From Auriscalpium vulgare (Eukaryota > Basidiomycota > Agaricomycetes > Russulales > Auriscalpiaceae), in NCBI GenBank assembly GCA_019915015.1, contig JAHBBC010000038.1, positions 1 to 64,000 of the forward strand: a stretch of DNA of 64,000 nucleotides, in the 5' to 3' direction. Shown here piece after piece: positions 22,199 to 50,578 of the stretch (positions are counted from its first letter, which is position 1; each line of letters opens with the position of its first letter). The notes beneath the pieces were generated by a model. The model ran no database searches. It was given only the letters and a program-made list of their open reading frames with translations, and was not told the origin of the DNA. The translations under genes were made by a program, and so were the position numbers.

Positions 22199-22695
22199 AT
22201 AACGACAGTAACTTCAGCCAACCGGGTGTTGGACTTACGACGACGGTGATGACGATGATGATGACTTCTGCCAACCGGGTGTCGGGCTTACGACGACGGT
22301 GATAACGACAGTAACTTCAGCCAACCGGGTGTTGGACTTACGACGACGGCGATGACGATGACGATGACGATGACTTCTGCCAACCGGGTGTTGGGCTTAC
22401 GACGCGGCGATAACAACAGTAACTTCAGCCAACCGGGTGTTGGACTTACGACGACGGCGATGATGATGACGATGACTTCTGCCAACCGCCGCCGGGTGTT
22501 GGGCTTACGACGACGGCGATAACGACAGTAACTTCTGCCAACCGGGTGTTGGACTTACGACGACGGCGATGACGAATACGACGGCGATGACGACAATGAC
22601 TTCAGCCAACCGGGTGTTGGGCTTACGACAACGGCGATGACGATGACGACTTAACTGCGATGGTGCCAACCGGATGTTGGACTTAATACGATAAT
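22199..22695 (+). repeat. Minisatellite, right part
   Basis: About nine further units of 50-65 bp with the core GCCAACCGGGTGTTGG(A/G)CTTACGAC and a variable GATGAC/GATAACGACAGTAA spacer. Units alternate between CTTCAG and CTTCTG starts, so the higher-order unit is about 105-115 bp. Open frames on the minus strand are a by-product of the repeat. Confidence 0.88.
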
Positions 22696-35385: not shown

Positions 35386-38300
35386 TCACATGGACTGAAT
35401 ATTATCACTGCCTGTCATCAACTCTGCTAAGGTAGTGGTAAGGTATTTGGTAGCTCTAGTGTTGCAAGTAGTTTTACATTTTAGGATCCCTAAAGCTTCA
35501 TGGTACTGTTCAATGGCAAGGTTCATTTCACCATAATCATATCTGTAAAGGTCTCCAAGGGCTTCCAGCACTCTAGCATGTGTCTCAGGATAGTTATGTC
35601 TTTCACAAATCGACAATGCTTCAGAATAGTATCTGAGTGCTGCTTCTGATTCCCATGCATCATAATAAATCCAGCCAACACACATAGTGCTATATGCTAG
35701 AGCTTCTGGATTATTAGATTTACCATGCAAATTTATTGCCCTAAGCCAGTAGTCTTTTGCTAAAGCAGGCTCATCATTATCATAATGTATTTTACCCAAG
35801 AGTTGTAAGTCATTTCCCAACATCCGAACCTCATTGCAAGCCTCATGAAGTGTTATAGCCTGTTTGATGGATTTCATGGCATCTGAGTACTCCTCTTTAT
35901 ATAGATATGCTTGGGCCATTCCTGTGAGGGCTTCACCTTCTCTTCGAGGGTCTTCTTGTGCTCGATGAATGTCTGCAGCCTGCTGATAAAATTCCACTGC
36001 AGTATCCAACTCCTCTAATTCAATATGCAAATTTCCTAAAAAATGCAAAATCCGATGGTAGGAAGTCACACTATTTATTTGTTTTCTCAATAGCAAAGCT
36101 TTAGAAAGATAATCTCTGGCTACTGCAAAATTCTTTTCTGACATGTAGGACAAACCAAGTGCCTCATAAGCACTGCCTTGCCCACCTCTGCTATTTGATT
36201 TGGTAAAAACATCTAGGCATTTGAAGAAGCATTCCCGAGCTTTCTCAATATTGCTGTCTAACCTACAAGCCTCTCCCAAATGCCGCCAGGCATTTCCAAT
36301 TTCATGCTTATCCTCAATACTCTTATAAAGCTCAATAGACCTCATTGCATATTTCTTGCCATCTTCATACAGAAAATGATAAGTTGAGTATACACTTAGT
36401 TGAGACAGTATATGAGCCTGCCCTCCGATATCTTGAAGCTTCTCAAAAATGAGCATTGCCTGCTTCCAATATATACAAGCTTGCTCATAATCTCCTTTTA
36501 TTCTATATAAGTCACCAAGATCCTTCAATACCTCTGCCTGATACTCTTCATCCTGTTGCATCTGAGCATAGTGAAGTGCTTTGAGATATTTCTTTTGTGC
36601 TTCCATATAATTGTCACAGCACTCAAGGCAAAACCCCCATCGTAGCTGACTAGTAATAGCACATTGAGGAGGAAGCAATTGTTCCTTCTCCTCCAATACC
36701 TCAAAAAGCTCATTAATAAATGAGCCTGTCTCTACAGAGACTAGCCATGAGTATGAATTGATAGCATCTACTACAGATTCATCAGGCACTTGGGTTTTTG
36801 CACATTGTAGCAAAATATAGCCAGTGTTTTTGTACTCAAGTAACTGTTCTATTGAAATTGCAGCATCATCTCCTTTTTTTGTACTAAGTTCAATATAATA
36901 TTTTTCAAGTAGCACCCTCTGCTGCTTAGAAAGCGGAATGTGTTCTTGAATGTAATATTGGATAAGAGGATGCAAATGCAATGTGTTGAATGACAGATAT
37001 ACCAAACTGCTATATAGTAAAGGCTTGATGCCCTCTTTGATACCCTGAATGTCTGCAAATATGGATTGAAAAACACCAAGTCTATCCAGAGATAACCCTC
37101 CAGGAAGTGTGCCTAATAGACTCAGAAGAAACAAAGCTGCAGGCTGTGAGGACAAGTTATTTCCTTCAATAGACAGCTGAATAGAAGTCTCAAGACTTGT
37201 AAGACGATGACTCCCTTTGCCTCGCTCGAGAAGCCTGATGTTAAGATCTTGCCATTGTTTCCATAGCGCCTTGCATTCATGTGATTGGGCAAGATGACCA
37301 GTCATAGTGATTGCCAAAGGGAGGCCTTCCACGGCTTTTACTAATTTGTCTGCCCACTCATCCCATTTATTTGACAGCTGCTGAAAAATATATTTGGAAG
37401 CCTCAAAGCTCAATGGCTTTAAAGGTGGCAATATTGGCTGTGACCAAAGAATCTCCTCTGGATATTCTGAGCCTCTCATGGTAATCATAACTGATGTATC
37501 TTTCAAAGAAGCAATTTTCTCCAAGAAGGACTGTACAGCACATTTTGTGGATTGATCACCATCCCATAAAGTTTCAAAGTTGTCAAGACAAATTAGACTG
37601 GGAGAAGCCCCAAGACAGGACAAAACATTTTCCTCAATTGCAGAACCATCTAAGTCATTCTTAATGCCCAAGGCTTTTGCTAAATCATTCACAAGCATTG
37701 ACATAGATAGACAACCTTCACAAGATACAAAATATAGTCTCTCATTGAAAATCTGTGCCACAGCAGGGTGGTGTAGAATTGATAAAGCCAAAGTAGTCTT
37801 TCCAATTCCACCAGGACCAAGAATTGCTACTCGGAAAGGCAGATTGTTTTTATTTCCAATTAATTCCAACATAGTGTTCATATAGCTGTCACGCCCATAA
37901 CAAATTGATGGTCGAGCTGGTATGTTGGTATTTGTCCTAGAAAGTTATGAAGCTCAATTTTTTATGATGGTAGAAAACTATGCACCTGTAGATAGAAGAA
38001 AACTCCTGCATTTTCTTTACATTAACAATAATAAGAATCATGATGCTGCTAGCAAACACACCTCTTTGGTGGCCTGGATGGTGGAGGCCAATGAAAACTT
38101 CACAATTCTTAGTCTCAATCTACAAGACAATATATATGCATACCTGATAGTTCTGAGATAGCATGTTAAGTGTCGCATTGCAGTATTTGATCTTGAGTGT
38201 CAATTGTTTATGGGTCAGAATGCAAGAAAGTCTTCTCCAGACTGATGTCATTTGATGATGGTACTGGTTGAGGATGCTTTCTATGCTCTTGAGTTCTCTT

Positions 38301-38910: not shown

Positions 38911-39061
38911 CTTTGATACTGCAGAGAGGGTATGGTTTGTATGTAAGGCGTGCAGAAGGAAGGCGTGCACGAGCAGTCGCGCGGAGTCAATTGGTATCAA
39001 CTCCGACTTCACTCCGACCTCGTGTGGGATGTTCGTGATGACATCCCTTCGTCTCTCGCCT

Positions 39062-39377
39062 CAGGCTCCTTCCCACCTCCCCTTCGAGGTTCGCTGCGAT
39101 ATCCGTATGAGATTGGGTAGGGAGGGATGAGATGATAGATGAGATAGATGTATTTACGTCACATTTTGATTTCCCTTTTCCGGACAACTTGGGACTTTGA
39201 AGACGCGCGAACCTCTCAGTGGCGGCTGGCACGAAACATGTGTAAACAAACGCCACCCGCGTGCCGCCCAGCGCGTACCTCGGGCAAAACCCTGTAAATA
39301 CTGGCGCTTAATTATATTATTTTCCGTGTACTGCCTAAACAGGGAGACGTGACGGGACGCGCGACTTGGCCGCGTCG
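39062..39377 (+). repeat. Left terminal inverted repeat
   Basis: Pairs with 50267-50569. The outer 40 bp and the inner 190 bp match almost perfectly. A stretch of about 60 bp near 39100-39160 differs, and a 17-bp insertion is present near 39250. The inner part has an AT-rich TTAATTATATTATTTTCC box (about 39308) that could serve as promoter for the helicase gene. Confidence 0.9.
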
Positions 39378-39444
39378 CGTCCCTGCCGTCCCTACTGCTT
39401 CGTCGCGCACCCTTTCCCTGATCTTCTGCCGCAATTCTTCCATC

Positions 39445-41362
39445 ATGCCCGACAACAGTGCTTCTATCCCAACCTTAAGCCAAATTCGGGCAAAGACCGT
39501 CGAGGCCTTCGGTCGTCGCCCGTGTCTCTGGCAGCTCAAAGCAGTCGAGGCAGTCCTTAAAGGCGACAAGGATGTTATTTGCATTTCAGGGACTGGGTCC
39601 GGAAAGACACTCACATTCTGGATGCCTCTCCTGTTCAAGTCGGATGGCATTCAAATTGTGGTGTCGCCGTTGAATATCCTGGGTCGGCAGAATGTCGAGC
39701 AGTTAGAGAGGCAGGGAATCCGGGCAATTTCACTGAATGCCCAGACGGCAACGTACGAGAATTATAAGGTACGAACTTAACCACTTCAATATCGACTCAA
39801 GTTGACACGCGCTCCGCGCAGGCGATTGAAGAAGGGCGTTACCGCGCCGTTGTCGTCAGTCCCGAGGAGTTTATGAAGGACGGCGGCGAGTTCGAACGGC
39901 TCTACAGGACCGATGCGTTCTGCGCGCGGGTCATTAGCATTGTATGGGATGAAGCCCATTGTGTCAGCACCTGGGGTGATTTCCGCCCAGAATACCGCGA
40001 TGCAAGGCGCCTGCGGTATATCCTCGCCCGTCGCGACATCCCCTTCCTATTGGCATCTGCCACCCTCCCATCTCTCGTCCTGAAGGACGTCAAGGACACG
40101 CTTCAAATACGAGAAGATAAGCACGTACTCATACATAGGTCAAACGACCGGCCAAACGTCGCACTCTCCGTCCGCAAGATCCGTTCTGCTCTTCACAGTT
40201 TCGAAGATCTTGCATTTGTTCTACCAGACGAGGTCGAGGTCGGGCCGAGAAATGCGCCTCCGAAGTTTCTGATCTTCTTTGACGACATCTCCGAGTCTGT
40301 ACGCGCTGCAAAATTCCTTCGACGAAGGCTCCCTGCGGAGTACAGGAGCAAAATCAAATGGTTCAATGCGGACATGACAGATGCGTACCGTGAAAAGCAG
40401 CTTGATGCCCTGAGGAATGGCTCCATTTGGGGTCTTTGCTGCACGGACTCCTTTGGAATGGTGAGTGCTGCGGTGACAAAGAGACGATAATGCTCACATA
40501 GCATCCTAGGGTGTCGACCTTCCCGATGTGGAGCTTGTTATCCAGTGGCGGGCGACGTGTAATCTTGCGACATTGTGGCAGCGCTTCGGTCGCGGTGCGC
40601 GTGACCTCGCTCTAACGGCCAGAGCGCTCTTCCTGGTCGAGCCAAAGTACTTTGATGACGTGAAGGCAAAGCAGGCAGCGAGAACGGCCAAGAAAGAGAC
40701 GAAGCGACTGGCAAAGCTCAAGAGAAAGAGACCATCAGCGCCGGCGCAGCCTGTCAAGAAGCGTTGCGTCGAATCAGAAAACGGCGAGAGAGAAGGTCTG
40801 GAGCTGCCGTCAAGAGATGTCGATGAGAGCGAAGGCGCCGGAGCGGCCGGAGCCGAGCTGCCCGAGGAGGAGGTCGACGGCCATCAGTCCGACAGCAGTA
40901 GCTCAGACAGCGACGAAGAGACAGAGGAGGATGTAGACCCGCACGCTGAGAGAAGATTCCTTTACCAGGCCTACTCGAAGGAGATGATCCTGAAGACCAG
41001 CAAGCTCGATGCGAAGCAGAAGGCAGAGTCAATGTCGGCGATGTGGAGCACAGGGTCATATCGGTGAGCTGGATATTGCTGGCTCACACATCCGCTGCCG
41101 CTTACTTGCGTGCTAACAGCTTCAAATCGGCGCTGTCCTCTCTATACGGCCGCAACTGCTGTGGAAAGCCCGGCAGCAGGCGAACCTGCCACGTTCGTGA
41201 CAACGGAGCTGGTATGTGCTGTCTTCGGCCTTTTCATTGCGTGCGACACCTCAAAGTGGCTCGATAATAGCAGGTAATTCATGAGACACCGGTCCGACAG
41301 TCGACGTCGACTGGAGCAACTTCGCTCGCGCCGCGTGTGGGCCGCACACTCGCTCCCCATGA
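39445..41362 (+). CDS. RecQ-like DEAH helicase of the TIR element
   Basis: ATG 39445, stop TGA 41360-41362, with introns at about 39769-39821, 40459-40508, 41066-41120 and 41210-41310, all in phase. Helicase motifs: Q-motif area RRPCLWQLKAVEAVLKGDKD, motif I GTGSGKT, motif Ia VVSPLNILGRQNV, motif II WDEAHCVSTWGDFRPEY (typical RecQ form), motif III ASATLP, motif IV FLIFFDDISES, motif V CCTDSFGMGVDLPDV, motif VI WQRFGRGARD. The C-terminal third is Lys-rich, then acidic/serine-rich, and ends with a small Cys-containing tail (RNCCGKPGSRRTCHV). RQC and HRDC domains are absent. It probably unwinds DNA during movement or replication of the element. It appears intact. Confidence 0.85.
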
Positions 41363-42835
41363 GTTCTATGGTACTAGGTCGGTATGCATCACTCTCATTT
41401 GAACCTGTCACTAATAGATACAACACAGTAGTTAAATGACAATGTCATCCAGGTCGTAGTCGTCCCAGGAAATCTCAAACTCGTCCCCCTCTGCCGATAT
41501 TACGTCATCACCTTCGCCCGCAGCCCAACCCGCCGTCTCGTACATTGACTGCCCCTTATCCAGCATATCACCGACTGAATACGATGTCTTGCGTTCCCTT
41601 TGGTACTCGTTCGCGCGTGAGGTGTCCCTGATATAATCTCCTAGCTTCTTAAATGTGATTGTCATATCTTTTTTCCCTTTCGCCGATGTCAGGCCTGAGA
41701 GATGCAAGTCCCGCTCGATCTTCTTATGACAGGCACGGTAAATTTCGATCAAGATTGACTCTGTGATCACTCGCTTCTTGGTGTAGTTGGATCCCGAACC
41801 TCCGTACGTGTCCTGTCCATGCGCATCTTATCATCACTGACCTGGTACAGCAGCACAAATGTTGCTCACCTTTGTGAATAGGTTGTTCAACTCGACAAGC
41901 CAGTCAACGGCGCGGAATGCATTCGGCTTTCCGGTTGGGTTAACGAGGCAATTGTACCTCACAGCCCGCCTGAAAATGACGTCAGCGCGGCGCCTACCAT
42001 ACCTACGGTGAGTCTACTTACTTGAGACCCACCGGATATACGAAATGAACATCCGTTAGGAACTTCAATATTGCGCTGGCATACTTGTGCTTCCCTGACG
42101 CACGAAAGAGGTATATCCATGACGGGAAAATTGTGTCAAGGCGCCCGATATCGCCTGCATTCATCCCGAATGAAAGCTCCTCGTAGAGGAGCAGGTACTG
42201 GTGAAGTACGAGCGTATTTTCGTGCTGCTGATCGCGCAAATTCGTTGGGTTTGACTGCATCTCGAACAGGTCCAAGTTTGGCGATCCGGCAACATAGTTT
42301 TGTGCCAGCTCCTCCGACATCTCGACGATCAAATCCCAGGTGGGTTTTGCGCTGGCAAATTCATCGAGCTCGGCCCACTTGTCACTGCGACGCCTCGCTT
42401 CAAGCCTCCAACAGTCCAGACGAAGCACCGCGCCAACATGGCCTATAATCTCATGCATGCGCCGAAAGCCAGGCTTCGACGTGATTTTTCCCGTTTCCTT
42501 CGGGCGCAAAATGCCAGCCAGGGTCTTCAGTGAGTTTGGATCGTCCTGTGTACCCGGGTGATTGATGAAAATTCTCCAGACCGTATCAGCGGCGGCCATT
42601 TTCAAATGAAAGAACCCTGGGGTGAGGACCACGTATTGCATTCGCCGCCACGGTGTGTCTTCGAGTGCTCGCCGCTCCTGTGCCGAATTGACACGTTCCA
42701 ATGTCCCCAGGTCACCGTGAATCAGAACCACGAAGGGGGAAATGTCAACGACGTCTGACTGCTCGTCCGGATCTGCGTTCGGGTCACCGACCCCACCCTG
42801 CGCCATCAACTCCTCCACGGCACGTATGTTTCCGG

Positions 42836-43687
42836 TGATGAGATGAACCCTGGGGGAGGCCCCGGGAACGTCGATAGAAATGGAGGGAGCGAGCGGCCAA
42901 CCGCTGGCCCAAGAGGTAGTGGGTCGGAGGAAGAAATCCAAGATCGCGACCGTGCCCCGAACAAACCACCCAGGACCCCGCGGGTCCTGCCCTCGTCCTG
43001 CGGCCCTCTCCCTCTCTCTCTCTCTCTCCGCTCCCGTCCGACCGTCGCACGTTGCGTCTCTTCCCACACTATTCGGTGCGACCCTCCCGTCTGTCGCCGC
43101 CGGTCCGTCCTAGTTGCGGAGTCGCCCTTGCCGTCCGACCGTCCGACCTGTGTCCCCGCGCTTGTACCGTCCGAGTCGCTATCCTGGAATATAAACGTCA
43201 GTCATAAAACCTACCACACTGTATCACTCCAGTCTGTGGTTGAGTCGGGGCAGCGTAGCCCGTGGTATCGCAAAGGTGGCGCGACCCGGATGTCGCTACG
43301 GCTTCCTGGTTTAAGGCATCGTGTCGGGCTGGTCTGGCGGTGTCGCGTCGTGCGATGCTCTCTGTGAAGCAGGAATGAAAGGTGTAGTCTCGGGTGTAGG
43401 CCCAAGGTCCAAAAGTGTCTATACAAGAGTATGAATCGCATCTATATACCGCTGCTTCGTCAGCTCTCCCACGGCCCGTGCACTCGCGCCCCGCTAAGTC
43501 TCGCCCCCCTCCACGGTACGCTTCCCCTACGCCGTCTGTTATCGCAGCTGTGTCGCCCTGCCTCCGGAGTATCGCATCGTGGTTGTGTGGTTGCCTCGAC
43601 GCCCTATGGGCGTCTCGGGGGGTGTGTATCGTTCTGTAGCGGTGCGATCGGCCCGTTTCGGTGCCTGTAGCGCGGCGGGTCCCATCA
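42836..43687 (-). repeat. 3' LTR of the nested element
   Basis: 852 bp, begins TGATGAGATGAACC on the plus strand and ends GGGTCCCATCA. It contains a (TC)n run near 43000-43030. Confidence 0.93.
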
Positions 43688-43699
43688 TCCTCCCCCCAA
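43688..43699 (-). promoter_or_regulatory. Polypurine tract
   Basis: On the sense (minus) strand TTGGGGGGAGGA lies directly before the 3' LTR, the normal place for plus-strand priming. Confidence 0.7.
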
Positions 43700-43774
43700 C
43701 TGAGCTACCGACTGTCCTCAGTCGGCAAATCCCCGGATGGCTCCTCCTGATAAAGGCTCCCTCGCGCCGTCTCG

Positions 43775-44622
43775 ATGAGTCGTCAGGTAGCGTTGCACCG
43801 CCCGTCCGACCCAACCAAACTCCCGACACAACCCCCCCCACACACCATCATGACCTGGTCTCCCCACACGTACCGTCGCGGTACTCTCTTGCTGTACCAC
43901 CTGGGTCGGGCCCCCAGCGCGGACTTCCCACTCGCAGCAGCCGCCGAAGCGATCGAGTCGCGCGAGCGTTGGGGACAGGAGGTGTTGGCTGTCATCGTAC
44001 GATTCCCCTCTTTTCCCGCCCCGTTGTCGCGCTAACCGTCCGCTCCCATCGGCTGTAGGAATCCATCACCGATTCCGACCCCAGGCTGATCATCCCCCTC
44101 GCCGAGCGCATCCTCATGCCGATACTCGAGAACGCCGTCCTCCTCGTACCCGAGGTCGAGGATCGCTTCCGCTCGTGGGCGGGGCGCTTTCTTCGTCCCG
44201 CCCCGCTCCCTACAACCGAGCTACACCCGTGGACCTTCGTTGTTGATCGGGTCGACCTACTTGATGCCCCCAAGGTCCGGCTGACCGCGACGCTGGTCGA
44301 GGAGAACTTTTGGGTCGTGTTTCGCAAACGCGGGTGCTCGGTCGCGTCGTACTTGCGCGAGCTTGCCATTTTCCATGCCGCCATCCCAGATGACCGTCCC
44401 CTGGGCAACCAGACGTGGGTCGCGTACGTCCTCCGAGAGGCCTTGGAATGTTCCGCGCTCTCCATTCGCCACTCGCGTGGTGGGACCGCTTTCCTTCCCG
44501 ACTACGTCGCCCGCGAGTCGACCGCTTGGCAGCGACTTACAGTCGCGAAATTCCTGTTCGCCTGCGAACGATGGCACCCCGGCTGGGGCGAGAAAGAAAA
44601 CGGGCGCCGATGGAACGTCTAA
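43775..44622 (+). CDS. Antisense gene inside the LTR element, unknown function
   Basis: Runs against the element's own sense. ATG 43775 (MSRQVALHRPSDPTKL), intron 43997-44058 (GTACGA...CTGTAG), second exon to TAA 44620-44622; about 262 aa. The exon-2 product (ITDSDPRLIIPLAERILMPI, RELAIFHAAIPDDRPLGNQT, WQRLTVAKFLFACERW) looks like a folded globular protein; I recognise no domain. The same frame, start and donor are kept in the older truncated copy at 33737-34201. Either a captured host gene fragment or an accessory gene of this family. It occupies the region where reverse transcriptase would be expected. Confidence 0.6.
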
Positions 44623-44819
44623 AGTCGCGTCGGTCGGCCGATCAAATATTGGAGGGGTAGATTCTGGGAGATCGCAAAATGATAAATAGGTTGCTCGTAA
44701 CTCTTCCGGCGAACTAGAGGAGTCGAAGGGGACCACGGCTTCCACGGAAATAGGATCGGCGGCGTCGCCCGTGAACTCGAGGACGAGCGCCACCTCCGCC
44801 TGGTCGTCCAACGACGCCT

Positions 44820-45824
44820 CTAGAGCCGAAAATCCCTGCGCTCGCCGGCGCTCTGAACGATGCGACGCGAGCCTCGCTCTACTGTCGGGACGGTCGCCGT
44901 CGCTTGAGTGTTGGGATCGGTGATCGTGATGGTCTGTCGCTCATCGACAAAGTTGCGGACTATACTCCCAGTGAGGACGTCGAAGGGCCTCCCTAGCAGG
45001 ATGTCGTAGGCCGGAGAACGTATGACGTGTATCTGCACGTAGAGCGTGATGTCGCCTAGCTTTAGCGCTACGTTGCGGGCTAGCCCGAGGGATTTGTCAA
45101 TCGAGCCGTTGGCGGAAAGCATGTCCAGTGTGATCGCGGGATCATATGCCAGGCCGAGAAAATGACAAACGTCTTCGGACATGGAGATGACCTGCGACCC
45201 TGGATCCAGGATAGCCTCAATGTGCGCTTGGTTATCCACCAAGGGCAGGACCGCTCGCAATGCCGATGACTCTTTTGCGACCACCAGCGGGGCCGGTTTC
45301 TCGGCCGAGGCACTCATCAACGTCAGCATCGGGTCGGAGAGCACCAGCGACCCGCGAGGCGGCACCGCTGGCTGGCTCTGTATGGCCTGCAAGAACGACG
45401 ACGGCATGTGCGAGGTGTATCCCCGCGCTCGATCTCTCTCCTGCTCGCGCTCTTCCTCGTACAAGTCGCCGGGTAGGTCCGACCACTCCTTGGTAGGCCC
45501 TTCCCCTTCCGCTACGACCGTGTGTAGGACCGCTACTGGGGAGTCCCCGCTGGACAGTACCGGGGCCGCTATGCGTCGCGGGGTGATAGCGTATCGCAAC
45601 TGGGAACGTACTTCTGGCGCCAGCGACAGTAACTCGCTCTGTGTCAGAGTGACGGAAGTCTCCATCGCGCGGCCGTAGACTTCCTTCGCGACTTCCTCAC
45701 TATGGATGGGCGTGTCCTTGGTATAGGCGGCGACTGGTTTCTTCCCTTTGTCTGGTCGGGACGCGTCCCCGACGGGTATGTAGGTTGCGTCGGGTACGGA
45801 GGCGAAAGGATGGATGGGTTCCGG
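44820..45824 (-). CDS. Retroviral-type aspartic protease of the LTR element
   Basis: In the same frame as gag, directly after its TAG (45825-45827). The frame continues EPIHPFASVPDATYIPVGDA... and reaches the protease core AHIEAILDPGSQVISMSEDV (about 45180-45240), with catalytic-type D-P-G (usual DTG/DSG; here DPG). The flap region then follows and YDILLGRPFDVL (about 44985-45020). It ends at 44820. Past the stop, a shifted frame (44811 to about 44640) still shows the usual post-protease linker (FCDLPESTPPIFDRP), so the pol part was once longer. It would mature gag. A separate start at ATG 45663-45665 is possible; readthrough of the gag stop is equally plausible. Confidence 0.75.
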   Translation of the reverse strand, partial: PEPIHPFASVPDATYIPVGDASRPDKGKKPVAAYTKDTPIHSEEVAKEVYGRAMETSVTLTQSELLSLAPEVRSQLRYAITPRRIAAPVLSSGDSPVAVLHTVVAEGEGPTKEWSDLPGDLYEEEREQERDRARGYTSHMPSSFLQAIQSQPAVPPRGSLVLSDPMLTLMSASAEKPAPLVVAKESSALRAVLPLVDNQAHIEAILDPGSQVISMSEDVCHFLGLAYDPAITLDMLSANGSIDKSLGLARNVALKLGDITLYVQIHVIRSPAYDILLGRPFDVLTGSIVRNFVDERQTITITDPNTQATATVPTVERGSRRIVQSAGERRDFRL

Positions 45825-48002
45825 CTATATCTCCTCGGGGTCCTTCTCGACTGTCGGCTCGCCCTCGCTCTCTTCCCTCGCTGCTTCCGCATCCTCTGGA
45901 CCTTCGGGCACCGCGAACGTAACCTTCGGCCGCTTTGCCGTGAATTTCGACGGAGATATGACCACCTCAGGGACTAGCCTCTTGGATCGCACTCTCTCCC
46001 CGGGCAGCGGACCGATTGGTGGCGGTAACTCTCCGTTGCGAATCGCTGCCTCCCTTCGGGCCCGGCCGGCGTTCCTCTGCTCCTTCATGAGGGTTAACAC
46101 CGCCATCTCTTGACGCAACTCCTCGAGTCGCTCGTCGTCCGTCAACGGCGGGATTAACTGGATGAGCCCGGCGACCGGCTGGTCGCGCGCAGGTCGGAGC
46201 GGGTAGTCGGTGACGGCGATGGGACCTGTCGATGCCAACATCATTGTTTCCGTCGCGTTGCCCGCGACTCTGGCCGCGACGTCGGCGCGCAGCCCGGACG
46301 GGTCCGTGCGATAATATTCGTCTACCCTCGCTTGAATCGGGCCTAGCCCAAATGGCACTGGCCTGCCGCTCTTGAGTACCACCTGGTTCATCTCGTTGCG
46401 TACCACCCGCCCCGTCGCTATGTAGTCTTGCAGGACGAGGCATTCGCGGATGAAGTGCTCGGGACCGTTGCAGAACGAGCACCTGGCGCCATCCTGTCCC
46501 GGGGCCGGGCGAGGACGATCGAAACGAGCGGCCGACGCCATCATCGGGCCCGGTGGCCCGCGCGTGTACGCCGACGGCTGCGGGCCTGCGTTACTCATCC
46601 CCATCGCATCGGCTCTCCCCGCGCTATACGCTTTCGCGATCTGCTCGGCCGCCTTCTCCATCAGAGCGGCAAACTGCTCGACCTTGATCGCAGGTTCTTC
46701 CGCCTTGACGGCCACGGGTTGGGACAAGTCGGCCAGACCCGCGGGGACGCTGAGCCCTGCCGATCGCGGGGTGCTCGACGTGCCGTGCAGCACGTACCGC
46801 GCCGCTTCCACTATTTGGTCCATCGGGTACGGGCCGTCGCGATCGTGGTCGGGATACTTCAGCTGCAGCCGCTGCTCTATCCTATCTTGCAGTCCCTTCT
46901 GAAATCCACGCAAGAAAGTGTAGTCGCGGTCGCGCTCGGAGATACGCTGCCGCCCTATAAGAAACTGGGAGATCGCGTAGAAACCGCGATAGTATTCCCC
47001 AACGTCGCCAATGGTCGTGACGCCTCGGCGGGCTGTCTCGGCGACGAGCTGATCGAGGTCGCCCATCGTGTATTTGCGCTCCTCGTCCGCTCCGGGGTAT
47101 AGCGCTATGATCGCGGTCACGAACTCTTCGAACGTCGCATTGCCCGCGTACTGGGGTCGGCTTTGCCACTGGTCTGCTGTAAGGACGTCCAGGTATCGCG
47201 TGGCGTGCTCCTTCTTCTCCTGGTCCTGGCCGTCCTCGATACCCGCCCGCGTGAACAAGTGCCTCAACTCCGCGAAATAGCGTTGCAGCTCGCGCAGCTT
47301 AAGATTGTCGAACTTAGGGGCTTGGCGGTCGCCACGGGTAGGCATCGGAGTGGCCATGGTCGTGCGACGGGGTAAACGCGATAACGGAGTACTGGATTGC
47401 GATGTGGGAGAAACTGGTCGGGAAACCTGTGCGGCCGCTCCACGCCCGTCTCCTGATAAACCTCCGTGCGTTCCGACGTTTCCGCGGTCGGAAGCCAAGC
47501 GGTCGCTGTCGGAAGGCACCTGTGCCTCGTCTCGGTCCTCATCAATCAGCGCAGCCACTTCGGGCTCCGATTCCGACGGGGTAAGCTCCGGCGACGACCA
47601 TTGTCGCATCGCTCCGCCAGTCAGCAACTCGATCGACGCCTCATTGACGTCCAGGAGCTCCTGATGGAGGGACCGTCTACCATCCCAACCGTGCTCCGAC
47701 TCTTCCGATTGGACAGGGCCTGCCTCCGCGTTTTGATCGCCGGGAGCCTCGCCCGCAGCATCCCCGTCGTTCTCGGGTGCTGCGTCCGACACACCCGATG
47801 CCTCGCCGTCGTCGTTTTCGTTGTCGCCCTCGGCGCCTTCAGCGCTGGAAGTCGCGCGCTCTTTGTCCGACGCCCCACCTTCCGACGATGCGAGGTGTCC
47901 TGGCATGGACTCCGCCCGCTGACTGGTCGAGTACTCCGACGGGGCCGATCGGGGCGGTGCGCGTCGAGTGGGCTCTACGATAACCCTCGCCTTTGGTGCC
48001 AT
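45825..48002 (-). CDS. Gag protein of the LTR element, 725 aa
   Basis: Starts ATG 48000-48002 (MAPKARVIVEPTRRAPP), 50 bases inside the 5' LTR. An acidic, low-complexity N-terminal third is followed by the retrotransposon gag core (PKFDNLKLRELQRYFAELRH ... WQSRPQYAGNATFEEFVTAI). A Cys knuckle CSFCNGPEHFIREC comes near residue 500, and then a basic Arg-rich tail. Ends TAG 45825-45827. Would form the particle that packages the element's RNA. Confidence 0.88.
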   Translation of the reverse strand: MAPKARVIVEPTRRAPPRSAPSEYSTSQRAESMPGHLASSEGGASDKERATSSAEGAEGDNENDDGEASGVSDAAPENDGDAAGEAPGDQNAEAGPVQSEESEHGWDGRRSLHQELLDVNEASIELLTGGAMRQWSSPELTPSESEPEVAALIDEDRDEAQVPSDSDRLASDRGNVGTHGGLSGDGRGAAAQVSRPVSPTSQSSTPLSRLPRRTTMATPMPTRGDRQAPKFDNLKLRELQRYFAELRHLFTRAGIEDGQDQEKKEHATRYLDVLTADQWQSRPQYAGNATFEEFVTAIIALYPGADEERKYTMGDLDQLVAETARRGVTTIGDVGEYYRGFYAISQFLIGRQRISERDRDYTFLRGFQKGLQDRIEQRLQLKYPDHDRDGPYPMDQIVEAARYVLHGTSSTPRSAGLSVPAGLADLSQPVAVKAEEPAIKVEQFAALMEKAAEQIAKAYSAGRADAMGMSNAGPQPSAYTRGPPGPMMASAARFDRPRPAPGQDGARCSFCNGPEHFIRECLVLQDYIATGRVVRNEMNQVVLKSGRPVPFGLGPIQARVDEYYRTDPSGLRADVAARVAGNATETMMLASTGPIAVTDYPLRPARDQPVAGLIQLIPPLTDDERLEELRQEMAVLTLMKEQRNAGRARREAAIRNGELPPPIGPLPGERVRSKRLVPEVVISPSKFTAKRPKVTFAVPEGPEDAEAAREESEGEPTVEKDPEEI

Positions 48003-48029
48003 CGGGTTGCTGAGCGGTTGACACTAGCC

Positions 48030-48047
48030 CCCTCGCGGTGGGCTCCA
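48030..48047 (-). promoter_or_regulatory. Candidate tRNA primer-binding site
   Basis: On the sense strand TGGAGCCCACCGCGAGG begins four bases after the 5' LTR. It starts with the TGG expected opposite a tRNA CCA end. The matching tRNA is not in this window. Confidence 0.5.
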
Positions 48048-48051
48048 CAAA

Positions 48052-48903
48052 TGATGAGATGAACCCTGGGGGAGGCCCCGGGAACGTCGATAGAAATGGA
48101 GGGAGCGAGCGGCCAACCGCTGGCCCAAGAGGTAGTGGGTCGGAGGAAGAAATCCAAGATCGCGACCGTGCCCCGAACAAACCACCCAGGACCCCGCGGG
48201 TCCTGCCCTCGTCCTGCGGCCCTCTCCCTCTCTCTCTCTCTCTCCGCTCCCGTCCGACCGTCGCACGTTGCGTCTCTTCCCACACTATTCGGTGCGACCC
48301 TCCCGTCTGTCGCCGCCGGTCCGTCCTAGTTGCGGAGTCGCCCTTGCCGTCCGACCGTCCGACCTGTGTCCCCGCGCTTGTACCGTCCGAGTCGCTATCC
48401 TGGAATATAAACGTCAGTCATAAAACCTACCACACTGTATCACTCCAGTCTGTGGTTGAGTCGGGGCAGCGTAGCCCGTGGTATCGCAAAGGTGGCGCGA
48501 CCCGGATGTCGCTACGGCTTCCTGGTTTAAGGCATCGTGTCGGGCTGGTCTGGCGGTGTCGCGTCGTGCGATGCTCTCTGTGAAGCAGGAATGAAAGGTG
48601 TAGTCTCGGGTGTAGGCCCAAGGTCCAAAAGTGTCTATACAAGAGTATGAATCGCATCTATATACCGCTGCTTCGTCAGCTCTCCCACGGCCCGTGCACT
48701 CGCGCCCCGCTAAGTCTCGCCCCCCTCCACGGTACGCTTCCCCTACGCCGTCTGTTATCGCAGCTGTGTCGCCCTGCCTCCGGAGTATCGCATCGTGGTC
48801 GTGTGGTTGCCTCGACGCCCTATGGGCGTCTCGGGGGGTGTGTATCGTTCTGTAGCGGTGCGATCGGCCCGTTTCGGTGCCTGTAGCGCGGCGGGTCCCA
48901 TCA
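48052..48903 (-). repeat. 5' LTR of the nested element
   Basis: 852 bp, the same boundaries as the 3' LTR, and flanked by CCGG at 48904-48907. Confidence 0.93.
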
Positions 48904-50266
48904 CCGGACACTTTCGATTGGTTGATATCCATTGCTCTTGCAGGAACATGCTTCAATTTTGTGACGGGAATGCGCTCGACAGCTTCCGGCTCGCCGAGCA
49001 GGCTCTCATACTGACGGAAAAATTGAGGGCCATGGTGCACGAGTGTCCGCCGGAACTCCCATGCGTTGTAGCGCGTACGACGACTGAGCCCCGTGCGGCG
49101 AAATTCGAGGTCTGGGTGGAGCATTATGAGTTTTTGGATGTCGAGGTCGGGCGGCCGGGTTGACCGTTCGTCGTTGACCCGCGCACTTTTCCACAAAGCC
49201 TCGGAGCAGCGTAGGTCATTAAGGGTGACACCGTGATCAAGAAGAAAAAGAAGTCCGGATGTGAGGTGGACAAGAGTGTCGAGCGGTTGGTCCGCTGTTG
49301 GTAGAATTGTCTTGAAGTCTATGTCGAAATTGTCGTATGCGTACGCGGCGAGCAAAGATCTCCCGAGGGCCCGAATATCAAGTGTGGCCTTGGCAGACAG
49401 GGAATGAATTGCATCATGTATAGATGTGAGAGATATGGAAAGCCCGAGGTGGGAGATTGTCTTGATGACTTTCTCCGGCGCATTGCACGAGTGAAGAAAT
49501 ATGCCGATCACGCTCTGTAACGCGTTGCATTGCTGGTTCATTGACTGCATCATGATGCTAATGATAGCAACCTTTTTCTACAGAAAGACGGCCGTGCTTG
49601 AGTACAAGTTCATATGTATATAGCTCTCAGCACGACATACAATATTGAGTAAAGTCTGACGGCGTGCGGCTCGTGTGCTCTCCTTCGCAGCTGGTGTCGC
49701 CTCCGCATCGTCGTCCCCCACGTCGTCCAGCTCCACCAGCTCCACATTTCTCCAATACCAGCTGTCTTCGTCATCCATCGGCGTGTCGCCACCGTGACCA
49801 GCGGGCGCAGAGCGATCCCTGCGCTGAACGAGCGTGTCCTTCGACAGCATGGCTCCGACGAGATCCCAGAGCTCCGGTGCTTCGTTCTGAATGTTATCCG
49901 CAAGGCTGCGAATCTGAAACTCGCGGATCTGGGCTGGTGAGGCATGTATGGCACTGAAATGCCATCCATTGCTCTTCTGAGCCAAGGTCGAGATGCTCCG
50001 GGAAAAAAAAGCGGCCGACGTCTTGCATACCCAGTGAGACGTCCGTTTGGCGGTCCGCGTGTTTGTTTGGAGGGCGTCCAGAAGCTCTTCGAGCTGCGAG
50101 ATGACGATATCGAGCGCCGTGCGATGGACATGTCGCCGACTTGTGAGAAGCGAGATGAAAAGATCGGGGATGGTGCAATCCTGGGCATCGAGATACGCAA
50201 GAATTCGGTCGATGGCGGGATGTACCATAGAGGAGATGTGTAGAGCAGGGCAGGGAGATCGAATGC

Positions 50267-50569
50267 CGACGCGGCCAAGTCGCGCGTCCCGTCACGTCTC
50301 CCTGTTTAGGCAGTACACGGAAAATAATATAATTAAGCGCCAGTATTTACAGGGTTTTGCCCGAGGTACGCGCTGGGCGGTTACACATGTTTCGTGCCAG
50401 CCGCCACTGAGAGGTTCGCGCGTCTTCAAAGGTCTTCAAGTTGGCCGGAAAAGGGAAATCAAAAGTGACGTAAATATATCTGTTATCTATGATCTATGTA
50501 TGATCTTCCTTCCCACCGCCGAGTACGAAAATCGCAGCGAACCTCGAAGGGGAGGTGGGAAGGAGCCTG
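50267..50569 (-). repeat. Right terminal inverted repeat
   Basis: Reverse complement of 39062-39377. Ends GGAGCCTG and is followed by the second 9-bp copy CTCTCGCCT. The DUF6589 start codon lies 39 bp inside it. Confidence 0.9.
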
Positions 50570-50578
50570 CTCTCGCCT

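Follow-up and report, generated by a model that had tools for sequence, protein, structure and literature searches.

A RecQ-like helicase and DUF6589, a predicted DDE transposase, in a terminal-inverted-repeat transposon of Auriscalpium vulgare, most likely of AcademH type

The first 64,000 nucleotides of contig JAHBBC010000038.1 of the basidiomycete Auriscalpium vulgare (GenBank assembly GCA_019915015.1; C38:1-64000, hereafter the window) contain an element at 39062-50569 in which a RecQ-like helicase gene and a gene of the family DUF6589 lie between long terminal inverted repeats (TIRs). We consider it probable that this is a cut-and-paste DNA transposon of AcademH type, in which DUF6589 would act as the DDE (RNase-H-fold) transposase and the helicase as an accessory protein. 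TIRs, 9-bp target site duplications, repeated pairing of the two genes, and shortened copies elsewhere, each with its own duplication, were observed in this genome (51.6 Mb in 96 contigs), and DUF6589 is predicted to adopt a DDE-like fold in which the acidic residues are conserved.

Structure of the element in the window

The element starts with CAGG at position 39062 and ends with CCTG at 50569, as read from the sequence. Its left TIR (316 bp, 39062-39377, plus strand, beginning CAGGCTCC) and right TIR (303 bp, 50267-50569, minus strand, ending GGAGCCTG) were delimited by inverted-repeat search (inverted repeats I1-I3 for the left arm) and alignment, and are 85.5% identical across 324 columns. 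Perfect copies of the 9-bp sequence CTCTCGCCT flank the element at 39053-39061 and 50570-50578, as found by direct reading and by script. The initial annotation had described these termini, inverted repeats of 303-316 bp and the perfect 9-bp repeat, all of which were recovered upon re-reading, by script and by alignment. It had also counted exactly two genes inside, apart from a nested long terminal repeat (LTR) element, and Pfam, along with NCBIfam and sequences from the PDB in the case of the helicase, confirmed them as a RecQ-like helicase (plus strand) and DUF6589 (minus strand). The two genes are convergent, each beginning beside a TIR and reading inwards. By arithmetic, the element without the nested insertion would measure 5,436 bp.

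The helicase gene, of the SF2 (superfamily 2) RecQ-like type, occupies 39445-41067 on the plus strand, with exons at 39445-39768, 39822-40460 and 40510-41067 whose splice sites were picked by eye. As read it encodes 506 amino acids, and an additional exon may follow downstream. The protein retains GTGSGKT, DEAH, SAT and QRFGRGAR, which we take to be the characteristic helicase motifs. Pfam DEAD was found above the cut-off in two exons, for both of which recQ_fam was the top NCBIfam family, and Helicase_C slightly below the cut-off in the third. WRN and RecQ were the nearest solved sequences for exon 2.

Ends, duplications and gene pairing across the genome

Genome searches returned 43 matches to DUF6589, grouped into 24 loci, and 21 matches to the helicase query. 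A helicase lay within 5 kb at 11 of the 24 DUF6589 loci, against an expectation of about 0.5% per locus, and DUF6589 was present within 20 kb of 15 of the 21 helicase matches. Both ends were inspected for ten of the 11 close pairs, the window among them; the eleventh (C49), whose left flank is the same as that of C14, was left out of the count. Two of the other 13 DUF6589 loci are shortened copies, and 11 lay outside the end analysis. In all ten elements examined, DUF6589 and a helicase match were both located inside, while the TIRs differed widely among elements. Seven pairs are convergent and three (C14, C20 and C6) are divergent; the latter share the end type and duplication length of the convergent ones, which shows that gene order can vary.

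Inverted blocks were found in every pair; they were shortest in C23 (23 bp) and longest in C14 (349 bp), and weak in C23 and C19b. All ten showed YAG...CTR ends together with a 9-bp duplication, which was exact in nine and carried one mismatch in C6. For C51 and C7, the direct repeat extends to 10 bp once the right end's terminal A is included. Across 28 ends from 14 elements, the consensus is approximately YAGRCTC, with AG at positions 2-3 invariant. Since the ends had been selected among candidate repeats near the TIR blocks, a blind scan was also run, requiring YAG ends, at least 7 of 12 matching terminal bases and an exact flanking repeat. At length 9, it recovered nine of ten cognate pairs, in each case with the end that had been named beforehand. 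Other lengths gave 0/10 (8, 10 and 11 bp), 4/10 (7 bp) and 3/10 (6 bp). When left and right ends from different loci were combined, the counts were 2/90 at length 9, 0/90 at 8, 5/90 at 7 and 16/90 at 6. The 9-bp duplications at cognate ends thus exceed chance. A helicase-assisted TIR transposon family had been proposed from the window, and the other close pairs examined, all from this one genome, support such a family, with TIRs, 9-bp duplications and the gene pair inside each element.

A search with the left TIR gave 11 matches, including the window's own two. The remaining matches yielded two 2.2-kb shortened copies, another copy of 1.3 kb, and a relative of 12 kb whose TIRs are 73-76% similar. 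Each of these four is flanked by one exact 9-bp duplication (GGTTTGCGG, TGGGTGCAC, CCTTTTCTG and ATCTTTGCC), in agreement with the expectation that further copies of the TIR would carry such repeats. The 2.2-kb copies differ from each other by only 10 mismatches and 8 gap columns, and have therefore moved recently and in trans. Family-type ends were also seen in two candidate miniature inverted-repeat transposable elements (MITEs), one of 140 bp with a 9-bp duplication and one of 384 bp without. In total, the duplication was present in 3/3 shortened copies and 1/2 MITE candidates.

Compared with the window, L009 and L010 have their TIRs swapped with respect to the genes: the right TIR of L009 matches the left TIR of the window (311 matches, 8 mismatches), and the right TIR of the window is closer to the left TIR of L009 (6 mismatches) than to its right TIR (16). 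This pattern suggests that the two ends have undergone exchange or inversion. At L054, the left end and its flanking 9-mer are present twice, about 1.8 kb apart (C20:906423 and C20:908250), as a tandem end duplication. The C51 element (L044 and L045; about 89300-98500) is surrounded by many tandem repeats spaced by about 110 bp, and these surroundings are perhaps subtelomeric.

The DUF6589 gene and its predicted fold

The DUF6589 gene is encoded on the minus strand in several parts. Alignment placed the 5' part, for the N-terminal region, at 49581-50228 (start codon 50226-50228, MVHPAIDRIL) and the part with the first candidate catalytic aspartate at 48904-49577 (D1 codon 49332-49334, motif AYDNFD). 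The middle part, at 42021-42835, carries the second candidate (D2 codon 42711-42713, motif HGDLGT), and the 3' exons, with approximate limits 41432-41990, carry the candidate glutamate (codon 41891-41893, motif DWLVELNNL). Pfam matches to DUF6589 were obtained for the open reading frames (ORFs) at 48417-49577 (E 1.1e-6) and 42021-43109 (E 9.6e-62), and 41690-41974 aligns to positions 331-406 of the profile.

Structure modelling predicted an RNase-H-like, DDE-like fold for DUF6589, in which D288, D475 and E741 are the candidate acidic residues, conserved as D/D/E. The model has an RNase-H core and, as read from it, a helical insertion preceding the last acidic residue. This puts the predicted fold in the class that includes the hAT (Hermes), P element and RAG1 transposases, with its three acidic residues (D, D and E) suitably positioned. 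DUF6589 differs from these in that it showed no sequence similarity to PDB chains at E <= 0.01. Moreover, hAT and P elements make 8-bp duplications, and we know of no hAT, P element or RAG1 system with a helicase gene. The suggestion that DUF6589 is the transposase, to be examined by comparison with RNase H-fold transposases, gained support from the model: the role of DDE transposase very probably falls to DUF6589, with the helicase as an accessory gene of the transposon.

In Pfam, DUF6589 (PF20231) is listed without a known function, and none of the transposase families there was among the matches of the DUF6589 pieces scanned. No paper naming DUF6589 was found in the literature searched, where PF20231 occurred only in one unrelated optics paper. 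At least 328 related proteins were retrieved in a search that scored 7,994 candidates, and the organisms named among 120 listed relatives are, we presume, all Agaricomycetes. The relatives closest to the DUF6589 of a sister element came from Auriscalpium vulgare, as would suit an agaricomycete host.

In the window, the gene is broken between its D1 and D2 parts by the nested element, and this copy is therefore unable to make an intact transposase. The broken gene, together with shortened copies that moved without full coding capacity, would suit an arrangement in which DUF6589 is a passenger or accessory and the transposase is encoded at another site, such as a Mutator-type enzyme that acts in trans upon the long TIRs. 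Long TIRs and 9-bp duplications are indeed usual for Mutator-like elements (MULEs). We consider such an arrangement very improbable: DUF6589 is kept inside ten of ten elements despite their widely differing TIRs, its model is DDE-like with D/D/E retained, and no Mutator transposase domain was among the Pfam hits of the ORFs scanned. A home for the element itself among MULEs was considered for its 9-bp duplications and set aside, as no MULE transposase domain was among the Pfam matches, which covered part of the ORFs. To our knowledge, a helicase is not typical of MULEs. No MULE structure was among the structural matches listed, an absence that excludes nothing. The data do not indicate an affiliation with Mutator.

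The nested element spans 42836-48903. Its LTRs occupy 42836-43687 and 48052-48903, with the inner boundary of the left one (43687) deduced from length. The direct repeats show no differences in their first 748 bp, which indicates a recent insertion, and a 4-bp duplication, CCGG, was read by eye along with the ends. An ORF scan identified a gag-type aspartyl protease at 44823-45824 (minus strand), and none of the seven ORFs scanned gave a reverse transcriptase match. The earlier label of LTR element is therefore based on the repeats together with the protease, and the element may be non-autonomous. Just left of the transposon, the minus strand at 35389-37944 encodes an NB-ARC/NACHT-type ATPase with TPR repeats (a STAND protein). 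Further away, imperfect tandem repeats with periods of 59, 68, 108 and 217 bp occupy 22199-22650.

Relationship to AcademH and proposed mechanism

The AcademH lineage (Kojima 2020, Mob DNA 11:15) was compared through excerpts of papers citing it. In these, AcademH is linked to a helicase and 9- or 10-bp duplications, and AcademX to a nuclease and 3- or 4-bp duplications, the difference in length being connected there with the helicase and the nuclease (PMC10045372). DEAD and Helicase_C domains are tied to AcademH and KolobokH, and AcademH is described as occurring at low copy number in Basidiomycota, Ascomycota and Mucoromycota (PMC10799480). Putative non-autonomous MULE and Academ elements are reported from Marasmius oreades (PMC8290104). 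An excerpt of another paper places Academ among the superfamilies with a DDD/E transposase, and presents KolobokH as a fungal lineage carrying a RecQ helicase downstream of the transposase domain (PMC9587614).

The present element resembles AcademH, as portrayed in these excerpts, in encoding a helicase with DEAD and Helicase_C domains, in its 9-bp duplications, in its basidiomycete host, and in its predicted RNase-H-fold D/D/E protein; it also has the TIRs expected of this lineage. No difference was found among these reported features, and the element is most likely of AcademH type, an already named lineage and not a new one. The observations of the initial annotation stand, and its interpretation of a transposon family with DUF6589 as the very probable transposase is supported; its impression that this gene pair has no named family is not supported, as AcademH fits every feature tested. 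AcademX, of the same superfamily, differs in its reported nuclease and shorter duplications from the helicase and 9 bp seen here, and no nuclease domain was among the Pfam hits of the ORFs scanned.

KolobokH shares with the element that it is a fungal DNA transposon with a RecQ helicase. Kolobok elements duplicate TTAA, a motif that matches none of the 14 duplications found here. KolobokH was set aside for its mismatch with these 9-bp duplications; in addition, its helicase lies downstream of the transposase domain according to the excerpt, while the helicase of the present element has a gene of its own on the opposite strand. We therefore regard this assignment as extremely improbable.

Another explanation is that helicase-carrying DDE transposons of a distinct, unnamed superfamily only resemble AcademH, with an independently acquired RecQ-like helicase and the same duplication length. 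The silence of the searched literature on DUF6589 and its unknown function in Pfam, with no transposase family on the pieces scanned, would suit such a superfamily, but the helicase, the 9-10-bp duplications and the Basidiomycota reported for AcademH in the excerpts all fit. A Pfam family of unknown function may well have a different name in transposon libraries, which also argues against it, and we find a separate superfamily unlikely. It is likewise doubtful that DUF6589 forms its own DDE superfamily, not homologous to Academ and repeatedly associated with a RecQ-like helicase gene in either convergent or divergent arrangement. If it did, one unrecognised transposon superfamily would account for the hundreds of DUF6589 genes, and for many orphan RecQ-like genes, in Agaricomycetes.

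For the AcademH-type transposon that we favour, we infer the following chemistry. The DUF6589 protein would bind the TIRs, cut at the YAG...CTR ends and join them to the target at staggered positions 9 bp apart, from which the 9-bp duplication would result. The helicase probably unwinds the transposon ends or the target during synapsis or gap repair. DUF6589, so far a family of unknown function, thereby gains a testable role as a DDE transposase. If this is true, DUF6589 genes and their paired RecQ-like genes could be removed from host gene counts in genome annotation, and the elements would offer a system for asking what a helicase contributes to a cut-and-paste transposase that makes 9-bp instead of 3- to 4-bp duplications.
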